Shown here piece after piece: positions 7,300 through 30,298 of a stretch of DNA of 34,331 nucleotides (position 1 is the stretch's first letter; each line of letters opens with the position of its first letter). A program made the translations under genes and the position numbers. A model generated the notes under the pieces. The model had not been told where the DNA came from. It searched no databases and worked only from the letters and a program-made list of their open reading frames with translations. This DNA is from Flavobacteriales bacterium (GTDB taxonomy: Bacteria > Bacteroidota > Bacteroidia > Flavobacteriales > Flavobacteriaceae): assembly GCA_027024205.1 (NCBI GenBank), contig JALVST010000081.1, forward strand, positions 1-34,331, in the 5' to 3' direction.

Positions 7300-9108
7300 T
7301 TAGTATCCGTTAAACGCATACCGGTTATCTTCCCTGACTTTTTTAGCAATAATACGACGTAACTCGTTGAGATTAGGCGTATTGTTATATTTGGTAAAGC
7401 GTTTGACACCCATCAACATCATCCGTAATTCATCACCTTGTGCAATGGAATAAATAGCTTCGGTAGCTTTAAATTTGATTTTTTCCACGGCATTGAACAA
7501 ATTCAGTTTACTCATGGCTATTTCTGCATTAAAATCTGCATCCGGATTTTGTATGAGTTTCTTTTGAGTCGCCAAAATAGTACTTTCTGCCATATAAATT
7601 TCAATCAATATGTCAGCTGCATCCAATACCAGTTGCTGTTGTCCGCCGAGTTTATTTCCGAATTTTTGTGCGCCGGTTCCGGCTATCATTAAAAAGACCT
7701 TTTTCAACCGCTTAATCATATCCAGTTCTTCATCCAAAGGACGATTAAATTCCGGTTTATCAAAAGAAGGTATCCCCATCAATTCGCCGGCTACCGCCTT
7801 TGCCGGGCCCAACAAATCCAATTGTCCTTTCATAGCCTTACGAAGTAACATGCTGATAGTTAAGAGTCTATTAATCTCATTAGTTCCTTCGTAGATACGG
7901 GTTATTCGGGCATCACGCCACCAACTTTCCATGGGCATTTCTTCGGAAAATCCCATACCACCGAAAATTTGCAAGCCTTCATCCGAAACAACTTGTGTCC
8001 CGTCAGACACATAAACTTTTAAAATAGCCGCTTCTATGGCATATTCTTCAAAAGTTTTCTTTTCGGCTTCCACTTCGGTCAGTCCGTTAGCTTTGTGTTC
8101 GGCTATCTTGTCACTGATATCTTTGGCAGCCCGGTAAATTCCAGATTCCGAAACGTAAGTTCTTGTTGCCATCTCGGCAATCTTTTTCTTTATAGCACCG
8201 AAATTTATCAAAGGTTGTCCGAATTGTTTACGTCCGTTGGCATAACGGATACTTTCATTGATAATTCGACGCATGGCATCAACAATACCTGCTGCCAATT
8301 TAATCCGGCCGATATTCAATACGTTTAAAGCAATTTTAAAACCTTCTTGACGTTTTCCCAACATATTTTCTACCGGAATTTTCGTATCGGAAAAGAAAAT
8401 TTGACGTGTCGATGACGAGCGAATACCGAGTTTCTTTTCTTCTTCTCCCAATTTAAAACCATTAGGATTTTTAGGATCATATTCAAAGATAAAAGCCGTT
8501 AATTTATCGTCTTTTTCGCCGTTTTCCACGATTTTGGCAAAAACAATAAAGGTATGCGCAAAACCCGCATTACTGATCCACATTTTTTGTCCGTTAATAA
8601 TCCAATGTTTACCGTCATCAGACAAAACAGCCGTTGTTTTACCGCTATTGGCATCCGAGCCTGCCGTCGGTTCGGTCAATGCATAAGCACCTATCCATTC
8701 TCCCGTAGCCAATTTGGGTAAATATTTGGCTTTTTGTTCTTCGGTTCCGTAAAGAAAAATCGGCATCATCCCGATACCTGTATGTGCCCCGTAAGCCGTT
8801 GCAAATGAACCGGTTGCTCCGGAAATACGATCACATACCAACATAGCACTGACAAAATCCATACCCATACCGTTGTATGCTTCGGGAATACCCACGGATA
8901 AGAATCCCATGTCACCGGATTTTTTCATCAATTCTAAAACCAAATCGTAATCGTGAGCTTCAAAACGCGGTTTGACCGGCATCATCTCACGGTCAACAAA
9001 TTCCGTAGCGGCTTCCGCCATCATTTTTTGTTCTTCCGATAAATCATCCAAAGTAAAAATGTCTTCGGATTTGTAATCTTTTATAATAAAATCTGCTCCT
9101 TTTTTCAT
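7300..9108 (-). CDS. fadE: Acyl-CoA dehydrogenase, long (VLCAD/FadE-type) form
   Basis: The 602-residue flavoenzyme catalyses the first, FAD-dependent oxidation of acyl-CoA in beta-oxidation. The ACAD core covers about residues 25-420, with the FAD/substrate signature ALTEPTAGSD (143-152), WISNAG (177-182) and the catalytic base E407 in RIYEGTNEI. The extra C-terminal domain (about 440-602) is typical of the ~600-residue VLCAD-like and B. subtilis FadE-like enzymes. It is the last gene of a minus-strand unit fadN-fadA-fadE, the same order as the B. subtilis fadNAE operon. A 443-base gap separates it from fadA. The bases just upstream of, and including, the ATG are part of a 115-bp repeat also found at 29347. 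Confidence 0.95.
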   Translation of the reverse strand: MKKGADFIIKDYKSEDIFTLDDLSEEQKMMAEAATEFVDREMMPVKPRFEAHDYDLVLELMKKSGDMGFLSVGIPEAYNGMGMDFVSAMLVCDRISGATGSFATAYGAHTGIGMMPIFLYGTEEQKAKYLPKLATGEWIGAYALTEPTAGSDANSGKTTAVLSDDGKHWIINGQKMWISNAGFAHTFIVFAKIVENGEKDDKLTAFIFEYDPKNPNGFKLGEEEKKLGIRSSSTRQIFFSDTKIPVENMLGKRQEGFKIALNVLNIGRIKLAAGIVDAMRRIINESIRYANGRKQFGQPLINFGAIKKKIAEMATRTYVSESGIYRAAKDISDKIAEHKANGLTEVEAEKKTFEEYAIEAAILKVYVSDGTQVVSDEGLQIFGGMGFSEEMPMESWWRDARITRIYEGTNEINRLLTISMLLRKAMKGQLDLLGPAKAVAGELMGIPSFDKPEFNRPLDEELDMIKRLKKVFLMIAGTGAQKFGNKLGGQQQLVLDAADILIEIYMAESTILATQKKLIQNPDADFNAEIAMSKLNLFNAVEKIKFKATEAIYSIAQGDELRMMLMGVKRFTKYNNTPNLNELRRIIAKKVREDNRYAFNGY

Positions 9109-9220
9109 CTGTTTATTTTTTTATTTTAACATTATGGTCAGATGTAACCTTTGATGAATAAAATAATCATTACGATGTGTGTTTAATGATTTTTTTAATC
9201 TTGTCGGTTTCATTTTTTTT
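9104..9220 (-). repeat. 115-bp repeat, copy 1: fadE leader with hairpin
   Basis: This segment aligns with 29347-29460 over its whole length, with about five substitutions and one 8-9-base insertion (near 9132-9140). Its hairpin arms are 9154-9170 and 9186-9202, pairing at 14 of 17 positions around a 15-base loop. Read on the minus strand, it forms the fadE 5' leader and the similarity ends at the fadE start (ATGAAA). It could be a regulatory leader, a small RNA or a mobile palindromic element. Confidence 0.75.
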
Positions 9221-20833: not shown

Positions 20834-21000
20834 TATATTGATGAATTGATGAACTGAGGAGTGAGGAGTGAGGAATGAGGAAGTGTGCTTCGATACAATC
20901 CCTTCCCCGGCCTTCTTCGGGGGAATCACTCAGCGAACTATCCTCAATTCCTCAAATTGCCAGACGAATATACGGTATGAGGTAATGAATAACGTCAAAG
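20834..21000. repeat. Purine-rich degenerate repeats between moxR and the DUF58 gene
   Basis: The gap starts with TGATGAATTGATGAACTGAG and several copies of GAGGAGT/GAGGAAT (about 20857-20881), followed by complementary pyrimidine-rich motifs (ATTCCTCA near 20947). The same words recur at 23525-23660 and, more loosely, at 26780-26880. No ORF is supported. Confidence 0.5.
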
Positions 21001-23538: not shown

Positions 23539-23822
23539 GGAGTGATGAATTGATGAATTGATGAGTAAGTCACTGAGTGATTTTGCGAAGTATGAGCAAA
23601 ATTGTATCGAAGTGACCGGGTTGATGAATTGAGGAATGAGGTATGAGTAAAAATATTTAAGTTATAAAAAATCTCTATTTCTCAATAATTGCAGTTTGAA
23701 TCACAAAACATTCATTTAAAAAATCCATATCGTATAAAACAAAGCAAATTCTCAATTCCTCAAATATAAATACGAGCATATTGTATAAAACAGAATACAA
23801 CTATCAAAGAAGAAAATAATCA
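23539..23822. repeat. Gap with degenerate ATGAATTG/GAGGAATGAG repeats
   Basis: The 284-base gap between the BatD-like gene and batA opens with repeats of TGATGAATTGATGAATTG and GAGGAATGAGG, then CTCAATTCCTCAAAT near 23752, the same words as in the moxR-DUF58 gap. No ORF or promoter match is visible. If the cluster is one operon, these spacers are transcribed. Confidence 0.5.
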
Positions 23823-25991: not shown

Positions 25992-26780
25992 ATGAAAACA
26001 AAAATCCTTATAATCATATCACTTTTATTTTTTAATGTTACCGCTCAACAACAAAACCACAAGCAAAACAAAGAGATTGAAAATTTGATCAATAAAGGAT
26101 TAGAAGCCTATGATAATGCCGATTACAGCGATGCTGAAGTGAATTTCAGAAAGGCATTGGCTAAAGATCCGCTCAATGCTGTAGCTTCCTATAATCTGGG
26201 GTTGACAGAAACCGAAATGGAAAAAAATTTGGAAGGCGCCCATTTCTTTGAAAAAGCTGCTCAACAAACCGATGATCCGCTGTTAAAATCAAAAGCTTAT
26301 TTTAACGAAGGAAATATTTGGTATCAAAAGAAAAAATACGATAAAGCCGTTGAAGCGTATAAAAACGCTTTACGTCAAAATCCCGACGATGAAGAAGCCC
26401 GTTATAATCTGGCTTTGGCCATGCAAAAACTAAAACAACAGCAAAAAAATAATAAAAACAAAAATAATAAAGATAAAAACAAACAAAATCAAAACAAACA
26501 AAAGAAAAATAACAAAAGCGACCAAAAGAAAGACCAAAAGCACTCAAACAAAAACCAACAGCAAAAAGACAAACAAAAACAACAAAACCAAAATAAGAAC
26601 GGTCAAAAACCCAAACAACAAAATAAACAGGGACAAAAACGTAAAACCAAATTAACGCCACAACAGGTAAAACAAATATTGGTTGCTTTGAAGAATAAAG
26701 AGCAAAAAACACAGAAGAAAATCAAAGCTAAAATCTTAAAAGGTAAAGCCAAAAAACATAAACAAGATAAGGATTGGTAA
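25992..26780 (+). CDS. batC: BatC-like TPR protein with Lys/Gln/Asn-rich tail
   Basis: The 262-residue protein begins with a signal peptide (MKTKILIIISLLFFNVTAQ). Three tetratricopeptide repeats follow (about residues 28-145), including YDNADYSDAEVNFRKALAKD and YDKAVEAYKNALRQNPDDEEAR. The last 110 residues are almost entirely K, N and Q, low complexity and strongly basic. BatC proteins scaffold the Bat complex through their TPRs. The basic tail could bind nucleic acid, envelope polymers or membrane; this is inference. A short ATG frame at 25981 stops at once, so 25992 is the start. The usual next gene, batD, is absent. Confidence 0.88.
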   Translation: MKTKILIIISLLFFNVTAQQQNHKQNKEIENLINKGLEAYDNADYSDAEVNFRKALAKDPLNAVASYNLGLTETEMEKNLEGAHFFEKAAQQTDDPLLKSKAYFNEGNIWYQKKKYDKAVEAYKNALRQNPDDEEARYNLALAMQKLKQQQKNNKNKNNKDKNKQNQNKQKKNNKSDQKKDQKHSNKNQQQKDKQKQQNQNKNGQKPKQQNKQGQKRKTKLTPQQVKQILVALKNKEQKTQKKIKAKILKGKAKKHKQDKDW

Positions 26781-29298: not shown

Positions 29299-29346
29299 TA
29301 AAACATTTTAAAAGAATACGACTAAATTTCATTTAGCCGGTTTTAT

Positions 29347-29460
29347 TTCATCTGTTTATTTTTTTATTTTAACATTTATGTAACCTTTGATGATTAAAAT
29401 AATCATCACGATGTGTGTTTAATGATTATTTTAATCATGTCAGTTTCATCTCTTTTTTTT
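29347..29460 (-). repeat. 115-bp repeat, copy 2: perfect 17-bp hairpin at the kinase 3' end
   Basis: This matches 9104-9220. The arms 29390-29406 and 29422-29438 are perfectly complementary over 17 bases around a 15-base loop. The TGA stop of the kinase gene (29435-29437) lies inside one arm, and the last codons are also in the repeat. At the other end it keeps the ATGAAA that begins fadE in copy 1, but here TAA follows at once. Confidence 0.75.
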
Positions 29461-30298
29461 GATGATAAGCCACTAACCGGTCAATAGGACGGCGAATTAC
29501 ATCTTTGATTTTGATGCCGTATTTTTTGGCTGTTTCTTCAAGGACAGGACGAAAAAAATATGCAATAGAACCGATAAAATATACCGGTACTTCTTTGGCT
29601 TTCGGATACGGCAAGATACGTTTTTCGATAAATTCTTCAAAACCTTTGGCAATGAGTTGACGCATATAAGCTTCGTCTTTATGGTCAAACATAAATTCTG
29701 CAAACTGTCCCAAATAAGCATTAGGACTATCCTCTTGATATAAATGCCGTTTAATTTCATCGGGTTCCAAATTATATTTACGAATGAAATCTTTGACAAT
29801 TTCATCAGGCATTTGTTTGTAAAAATAATCTTGCAGCAGTTTTTTTCCAAAATAATTGCCACTGGCTTCGTCCATGAGTATGTAACCCAAAGAAGGAACA
29901 TTTTGATGCATTTCTTTGCCGTCAAAATAACAAGAATTAGAACCGGTTCCTAAAATACAGACAATAGCTTCTTCTCCACCCGATGCTGCATAAACAGCCG
30001 CTAACATATCTTCGGCTACATTGATCGCGGCATTTGGAAAAAGTTTTTCCAATACTTTTTTCAATTTGCCAGTGGGTCCCGATGTTCCACAACCTGCTCC
30101 GTAAAAATAAACTTCTTTAACTTGTCCGGCATTTTTGGTCAGTTCGTAATTATTAATCAACCTGTTTTCCAACTGTTGTTCTGTTAAAATAGCCGGATTT
30201 AAACCTCTGGTACGGGTTCTGAACAATTCTTTTTTATTATCATCATCTAACGCGATCCAATCCGCTTTGGTAGAACCGCCATCTGCAATTAAAATCAT
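29435..30298 (-). CDS. BadF/BadG/BcrA/BcrD-type ATPase, N-acetylglucosamine kinase-like
   Basis: The 287-residue ASKHA-fold sugar kinase has DGGSTKADW (6-14) as phosphate-1 loop, YGAGCGTSG (66-74), GTGSNSCYFDG (117-127) as phosphate-2 loop, and GYILMDEASGNYFGKKLL with the conserved Asp/Glu/Gly pattern. Similar flavobacterial proteins are annotated N-acetylglucosamine kinase, feeding cell-wall amino-sugar recycling; substrate assignment is inference. The final residues and stop codon lie within the hairpin repeat at 29347-29460, so the C-terminus may have been set by that element. Confidence 0.85.
   Translation of the reverse strand: MILIADGGSTKADWIALDDDNKKELFRTRTRGLNPAILTEQQLENRLINNYELTKNAGQVKEVYFYGAGCGTSGPTGKLKKVLEKLFPNAAINVAEDMLAAVYAASGGEEAIVCILGTGSNSCYFDGKEMHQNVPSLGYILMDEASGNYFGKKLLQDYFYKQMPDEIVKDFIRKYNLEPDEIKRHLYQEDSPNAYLGQFAEFMFDHKDEAYMRQLIAKGFEEFIEKRILPYPKAKEVPVYFIGSIAYFFRPVLEETAKKYGIKIKDVIRRPIDRLVAYHQKKEMKLT

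Follow-up and report, generated by a model that had tools for sequence, protein, structure and literature searches.

A short palindromic element bounded by ATGAAA, probably mobile, often lies just before Flavobacteriaceae genes as a presumed 5' leader

The DNA just upstream of a fadE-like gene most probably belongs to a mobile, non-autonomous element about 105 bp long, which is targeted to ATGAAA in a fixed orientation and often becomes the 5' leader of the gene; we put the probability of this reading at roughly 0.8. An earlier, sequence-only reading of the window (the whole stretch of 34,331 nucleotides that was analysed) had listed a non-autonomous mobile palindrome supplying the fadE leader among its options. 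This option was strengthened by 26 copies in the source genome, by empty orthologous sites and by counts of 0 to 44 matches per genome, and the attenuator, RNA thermometer, protein-binding site or small RNA listed beside it gained no direct support.

The window contains two copies, both on the minus strand, at 9103-9213 (copy A, 101.9 bits) and 29346-29449 (copy B) in a cmsearch with covariance model R1; copy A is one of the 35 sequences inside the model, and copy B is not in its alignment. The features discussed below are the following.

9103..9213, minus strand: element copy A (cmsearch with R1, family alignment), with ATGAAA at both ends, the right one being the fadE start
9186..9202, minus strand: left arm of H1, the long helix, in copy A (14 of 17 pairs; H1 covariation in 35 copies)
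9154..9170, minus strand: right arm of H1 of copy A (sequence and H1 covariation)
9139..9144, minus strand: CATCTG arm of helix P2 of copy A (covariation with CAGATG across copies)
9106..9111, minus strand: CAGATG arm of P2 of copy A, with the fadE start codon inside (covariation, folding)
9121..9213, minus strand: putative 30-codon upstream ORF from the left ATG of copy A (sequence reading)
7300..9108, minus strand: fadE-like acyl-CoA dehydrogenase, its start codon being the insertion target (NF058590 above cut-off; Pfam)
29346..29449, minus strand: element copy B, between convergent kinase and RidA-like genes (cmsearch, 84.2 bits)
29422..29438, minus strand: left arm of H1 of copy B (17 of 17 pairs)
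29390..29406, minus strand: right arm of H1 of copy B (sequence, folding)
29435..30298, minus strand: BadF/NagK-like kinase, ending in the codons ATG AAA CTG ACA TGA, which form the left end of copy B

Read on the minus strand, both copies start with ATGAAAC(C/T)GAC and finish with AAACAG ATGAAA, the second ATGAAA delimiting the opposite end of each copy. Aligned over 111 columns, their sense strands show 5 substitutions and 7 gap columns, and the local alignment score of 163, where the best of 1000 single-base shuffles reached 40, agrees with the earlier statement that the similarity is far above chance. The earlier count of about five substitutions also held, the proposed indel of 8-9 bases came out as 7 gap columns, and the spans were slightly shifted. 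The similarity had been said to stop at ATGAAA, which was an error: those six bases belong to the shared stretch. The hairpin was recovered as described, with 14 of 17 pairs in copy A, 17 of 17 in copy B and a 15-base loop differing in one base, and RNA folding gave z-scores of -2.8 (copy A) and -4.6 (copy B). The label of a kinase gene fits a BadF/NagK-like protein, on the basis of weak matches below curated cut-offs. Copy B provides the last four codons and the stop of this gene, which in the source genome reads ...HQKKE-ATG AAA-CTG ACA TGA; since a TAA follows directly after the right end of the element, the kinase probably ended with ...KKEMK* before the insertion. The location of copy B in the last codons of the kinase indicates that the hexamer itself, and not gene starts as such, is the target, and that a start codon is not required for insertion. 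Two other repeat types were seen in the window: A-rich repeats (AAAACAA-like) at 26417-26651, within the ORF 25992-26780, and short TGATGAATTGATGAA repeats directly past gene ends, at 20839-20865 and 23543-23640.

A search of the source genome (G000; 2.38 Mb in 151 contigs) with one copy returned 25 near-full places and pieces, and reading of the loci brought the number to 26 copies (L001-L026) with unrelated flanks; at least three diverged relatives (L040, L042, L043) were recognised by eye besides. The search of this genome and its relatives, which the sequence-only reading had proposed, also yielded matches in nine further genomes of the genus. The 25 copies that were typed (L026 was excluded) are 91-140 bp long. 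The left hexamer is ATGAAA in 24 of them (AAGAAA in the remaining one), and so is the right hexamer (the remaining one being ATAAAA). For 17 of the 25, an ORF that is at least 100 aa long, or that runs off the examined stretch, begins with the right ATGAAA; in the other eight this hexamer opens frames of 2-28 codons, one of them within the left end of another element. Most typed copies open with a four-codon frame, MKPT*, and the fadE copy has lost this stop, which gives the 30 putative codons listed above. The genes downstream of the copies, which were named by eye unless a family search is given, look unrelated within and between genomes, and some copies sit between convergent genes or ahead of other elements. 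Nesting was observed as well: the last bases of L002 are the ATGAAA of another, different element (L043), and in L003, which occupies the FAH-like site of G000, the new copy follows an apparent element remnant. The long variants L020-L026 carry a small GC-rich palindrome (TGTCCCGGCCGATGTCGGGA-like) in the H1 loop, and L023-L026 have a second GC-rich palindrome in the place of the CATCTG arm, which resembles another repeat nested inside the element. By eye, the copy in L024 starts a cas2-like frame.

The comparison of filled and empty orthologous sites showed the precision of insertion. In a covariance search, the element was present in 4 of 55 orthologous stretches of the genus outside G000 and missing from 51, with none further at E 1. 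The fadE orthologs (found at the limit used in 7 of 13 genus genomes, G000 included) were filled in 0 of 6 cases outside G000, and all six begin with ATGAAA after a short leader. The element is thus not a conserved fadE regulator, and the conservation of the hairpin in orthologous fadE leaders, which the sequence-only reading had considered, was absent from 6 of 6 orthologs in the genus. The kinase site was filled in 0 of 7; these seven closest orthologs end without the element, and other genomes have just relatives of about 40% identity. The aroQ-like (0/8), trpD-like (0/5), abhydrolase (0/8) and lipoprotein (0/1) sites were filled in G000 alone among the genomes examined. The serC-like site (2/9 outside G000) was filled in G000, G006 and G010 and empty in seven genomes, and the FAH-like site (2/11, one truncated) was filled in G000 and G006, filled by a truncated copy in G008 and empty in nine others. 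At the FAH-like site the filled G006 reads aacttaaaagaacaaaactc-ATGAAACC...AAACAG-ATGAAAATAATCTG and the empty G007 and G001 read aacttaaaagaacaaaactc-ATGAAAATAAT, with the left flank and ATGAAA identical to the filled sequence. No bases were lost, and ATGAAA alone was doubled, being present on both sides of the filled site and once in the empty one; this may represent either a 6-bp target duplication or an element end equal to the target. Movement of the element into ATGAAA is well supported. Match counts, which include pieces, ranged from 3 to 44 in nine other genomes of the genus (44 in G006; 3, 27 and 7 in G005, G007 and G009; fragments only in G004) and were 0 in three (G003, G011 and G012).

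The window contains 73 ATGAAA hexamers, of which 9 are gene starts, 48 are intragenic and 16 lie elsewhere. In a sample of 24 copies, scored with our own gene calls, the 17 start sites exceeded the 9 of 73 expected from all ATGAAA (P about 5e-11) and the 9 of 25 expected from non-coding ones (P 5.5e-4), the window sample containing the two copies themselves. As the excess over non-coding sites is moderate, the loss of harmful insertions can explain much of the start-codon bias. Copies were also seen at dnaN-like gene starts of two genera with different flanks, L188 (G192) and L223 (G152), and these insertions are possibly independent.

The covariance modelling proposed by the sequence-only reading was carried out on an alignment (A1) of 35 diverse copies, in which both the H1 and P2 helices covary. 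P2 pairs CATSTG with CASATG, and the latter includes the downstream start codon. In H1 and P2 together, 13 of 24 pairs were changed on both sides, compared to 4-7 pairs in controls with a slid structure; as one of the sequences served to draw the structure, it is favoured in this control. The cells changed on both sides numbered 38, against a shuffled mean of 9.3, and none of 500 shuffles reached this value. The central P2 pair in the 35 rows was C-G in 17, G-C in 11, A-U in 1 and unpaired in 6. In 77 chosen family-wide rows the P2 site was G-C in 49, C-G in 22, T-A in 1, G-T in 2 and unpaired in 3, so that Watson-Crick pairs were found in 72 of 77 rows versus about 41 matches expected from the margins; nine genomes have both pair types. 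The CATSTG arm was missing in 5 of the 25 typed G000 copies. An outer pairing, ATG.AACC/GGTT.CAT, was rejected: it was kept in 93% of cells with little covariation, and 10-26 of 500 shuffles reached the measures. The right end can pair, over the start codon, with a segment inside the element, so the element may affect the translation of the downstream gene.

In G000, the left ATG at the abhydrolase site is preceded by a TAAATTTG box that begins 35 bases upstream; in four empty relatives its distance from the gene start is, counted by eye, 31-34 bases. The upstream position of the box in both filled and empty sites suggests that the element there probably lies within the 5' leader. In a promoter scan for TAnnTTTG, the Bacteroidetes -7 box consensus, just 4 of 24 copies had this sequence in the 80 nt that precede their left ATG. 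Rfam gave no match in the window above the gathering score, and at seven loci it gave one match (E 0.011), below the gathering score and outside the element.

The element extends across the family. Matches at E 1e-6 were found in 30 of 299 family genomes with just two candidates scored per genome, and a right-module pattern with up to 3 mismatches, which misses the type of the window itself because of its different spacer, matched 62 of the 299 genomes, from 57 of 236 genera; the reversed control pattern was not found among the matches listed. The covariance model detected the element in at least 7 of 395 genomes across the order, a weak lower bound since 9 of thousands of candidates were scored per genome. 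Exact degenerate-pattern matches were obtained in 12 contigs, including those of Lutibacter litoralis, Paucihalobacter ruber, Avrilella dinanensis and Winogradskyella flava. Two metagenome contigs were labelled outside the family, as Chitinophagaceae and Deltaproteobacteria; the latter has its locus in common with a Flavobacteriaceae contig and is possibly a binning error. The stems differ between subfamilies (ATGAAACGAGC, ATGAAACATCCAT, ATGAAATGAGC and others). Among 47 examples of the right module (loci L190-L230), ATGAA was found no more than 100 bases upstream in 41, at a distance of 54-57 bases in 32 and 68-69 in 4. An ORF of at least 60 aa follows in 39 of the 47, and five of the other eight are inner units of tandem arrays. 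Such head-to-tail arrays, with a period of 89-90 bp, have four units in G025, three in G145 and two each in L196, G119 and G100. Phages gave just short, insignificant matches to the window copy, and no phage, plasmid or viral match was obtained in other scans, the plasmid scan having used one copy, from Avrilella dinanensis, as its query. We found no description of the element in the literature covered, from which subscription papers were mostly excluded.

The search for the mobilising enzyme identified no transposase, as no Y1 subclass tracks the copies across the element-rich genomes examined. Some Y1 gene, of differing subclasses, was present in 13 of 14 element-rich genomes. Y1 was not found in G005, G007 and G009 despite their element matches, nor in G233, and G003 has Y1 without the element. 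One Y1 type, the only one for which the frequency in element-free family genomes was measured, occurred in 11 of 26 element-positive versus 6 of 26 element-negative family genomes and in 2 of 13 genus genomes. None of the Y1 genes at 46 loci has the element's ends around it; two of these loci (L242 and L127) contain the element, on one side only, and one more gave a weak match (E 0.1). In L127 the element lies about 0.6 kb downstream of a RAYT-like (subclass-2.6-like) gene, where the following gene begins. By eye, the subclass-2.6-like genes of L127, L128 and L123 (G002 and G006) lie near different repeats, e.g. ccacacgatacaatcgtgcggtag, and no such gene was found in G000. The resident Y1 genes of G000, two full IS200-type genes and a fragment, were considered and rejected, with no element in the examined stretches around them. 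The split copy L174, with about 320 bp extra in the loop, was rejected as an autonomous copy, the insert having no frame longer than 61 aa.

Among known systems, palindrome-associated transposable elements (PATEs) are non-autonomous derivatives of IS200/IS605 with a hairpin, a guide-like segment and a short fixed target. Our element likewise has a hairpin and a guide-like segment complementary to its end, inserts beside a short fixed target and lacks terminal inverted repeats; however, it has a single long hairpin and a target-like hexamer at both ends, and no parent IS with the same ends was found. On the complement of the sense strand, TTTCAT comes before the CASATG guide 5' of the hairpin and then GGTTTCAT, an order that resembles the IS200/IS605 guide pairing described in PMC8266576. 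Like MITEs, the element is short, multi-copy and gene-free with precise empty sites, but in alignment A1 its ends are, by eye, not inverted repeats of one another (the left ATGAAACC and the right AAACASATGAAA are not reverse complements). To our knowledge, it has no known parent transposon. Inserts that undergo translational bypassing (T4 gene 60, Magnusiomyces mitochondria) share with it a codon repeated at both ends, a hairpin and an early stop, features given for T4 gene 60 in PMC5009743. In the element, by contrast, the downstream copy of the codon is itself a start codon, preceded by an A-rich leader, which makes direct initiation sufficient.

Several other explanations have to be weighed against a mobile element targeted to ATGAAA. 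Chance local duplication of a single leader, for which nothing speaks beyond the view of two copies, is refuted by the copy number in G000 and by matches across the genus (nine other genomes at E 0.001, that of G004 being fragments), besides the family-wide relatives, and we assign it practically no weight. In another explanation, the copies would be members of a regulon under a conserved cis-regulatory RNA, be it an attenuator, a thermometer or a protein-binding leader. This could account for the covariation of the helices, including the one that spans the start codon, and for the gene-start position of 17 of 25 typed copies. However, the downstream genes look unrelated by eye, 51 of 55 orthologous sites lack the element, and copies are found between convergent genes and before other elements, which makes this explanation very unlikely. 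Site-specific recombination by an integron-like or other recombinase, with ATGAAA as the crossover core, would explain the tandem arrays, whose junctions share ATGAA; yet the array units are nearly identical where seen, so simple duplication suffices, and we regard recombination as rather doubtful.

The element could also be an ordinary REP moved by a resident RAYT (TnpA_REP), perhaps of the Bacteroidetes subclass 2.6 with its atypical structures. Similarly to REP/BIME sequences, it is a chromosomal, multi-copy palindrome without a gene of its own; according to PMC6006769, subclass 2.6 genes have atypical structures on their flanks, of which further copies occur at other places in the genome, and L127 places the element near such a gene. 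On the other hand, the element is about 105 bp long against 20-40, is bounded by ATGAAA, sits at gene starts and has no closely flanked RAYT. In the 35-copy consensus, neither foot of H1 shows, by eye, the GT[AG]G tetranucleotide of REP. With three subclass-2.6-like genes of G002 and G006 near other repeats and none found in G000, we consider this explanation unlikely.

In our preferred reading, the mobile element inserts at ATGAAA in one orientation and leaves ATGAAA at each end, most surviving insertions being at gene starts. The downstream hexamer stays intact, with the A-rich right end of the element as new sequence just before the start; the coding sequence remains unharmed, and the element joins the 5' leader, presumably being transcribed as part of it. 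A folded single strand is probably used for mobility, H1 marking the element. The internal CATSTG has its complement in the CASATG end and, on the complement strand, in TTTCAT-type ends, which would allow a pairing of guide and cleavage site like that of IS200/IS605-like HUH transposases acting in trans; by this analogy, a single-strand (HUH-like) enzyme perhaps moves the element. A bolder proposal is that the element finds gene starts by base-pairing with the start-codon sequence and rebuilds the start codon, that it brings a leader of its own whose internal segment, the one used for finding starts, can pair with either ATGAAA end, and that ribosomes are handed from the old to the new start by reinitiation, shunting or bypass. 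We hold this to be improbable; if true, insertion would be nearly silent even before apparently essential genes.

Many mobile elements break the gene that they enter, whereas this family restores a hexamer that is common at gene starts of these bacteria. Since the target is restored, the element can sit before dnaN-, pyrH- and accC-like genes (named by eye), where it may have replaced the leaders. The upstream ATGAAA could mislead the annotation of start sites. Bacteria of this group have mRNAs without Shine-Dalgarno sequences, as stated in PMC6847099, and the element would offer a direct way to study which enzyme moves it and how a mobile element rewrites translation initiation without them.
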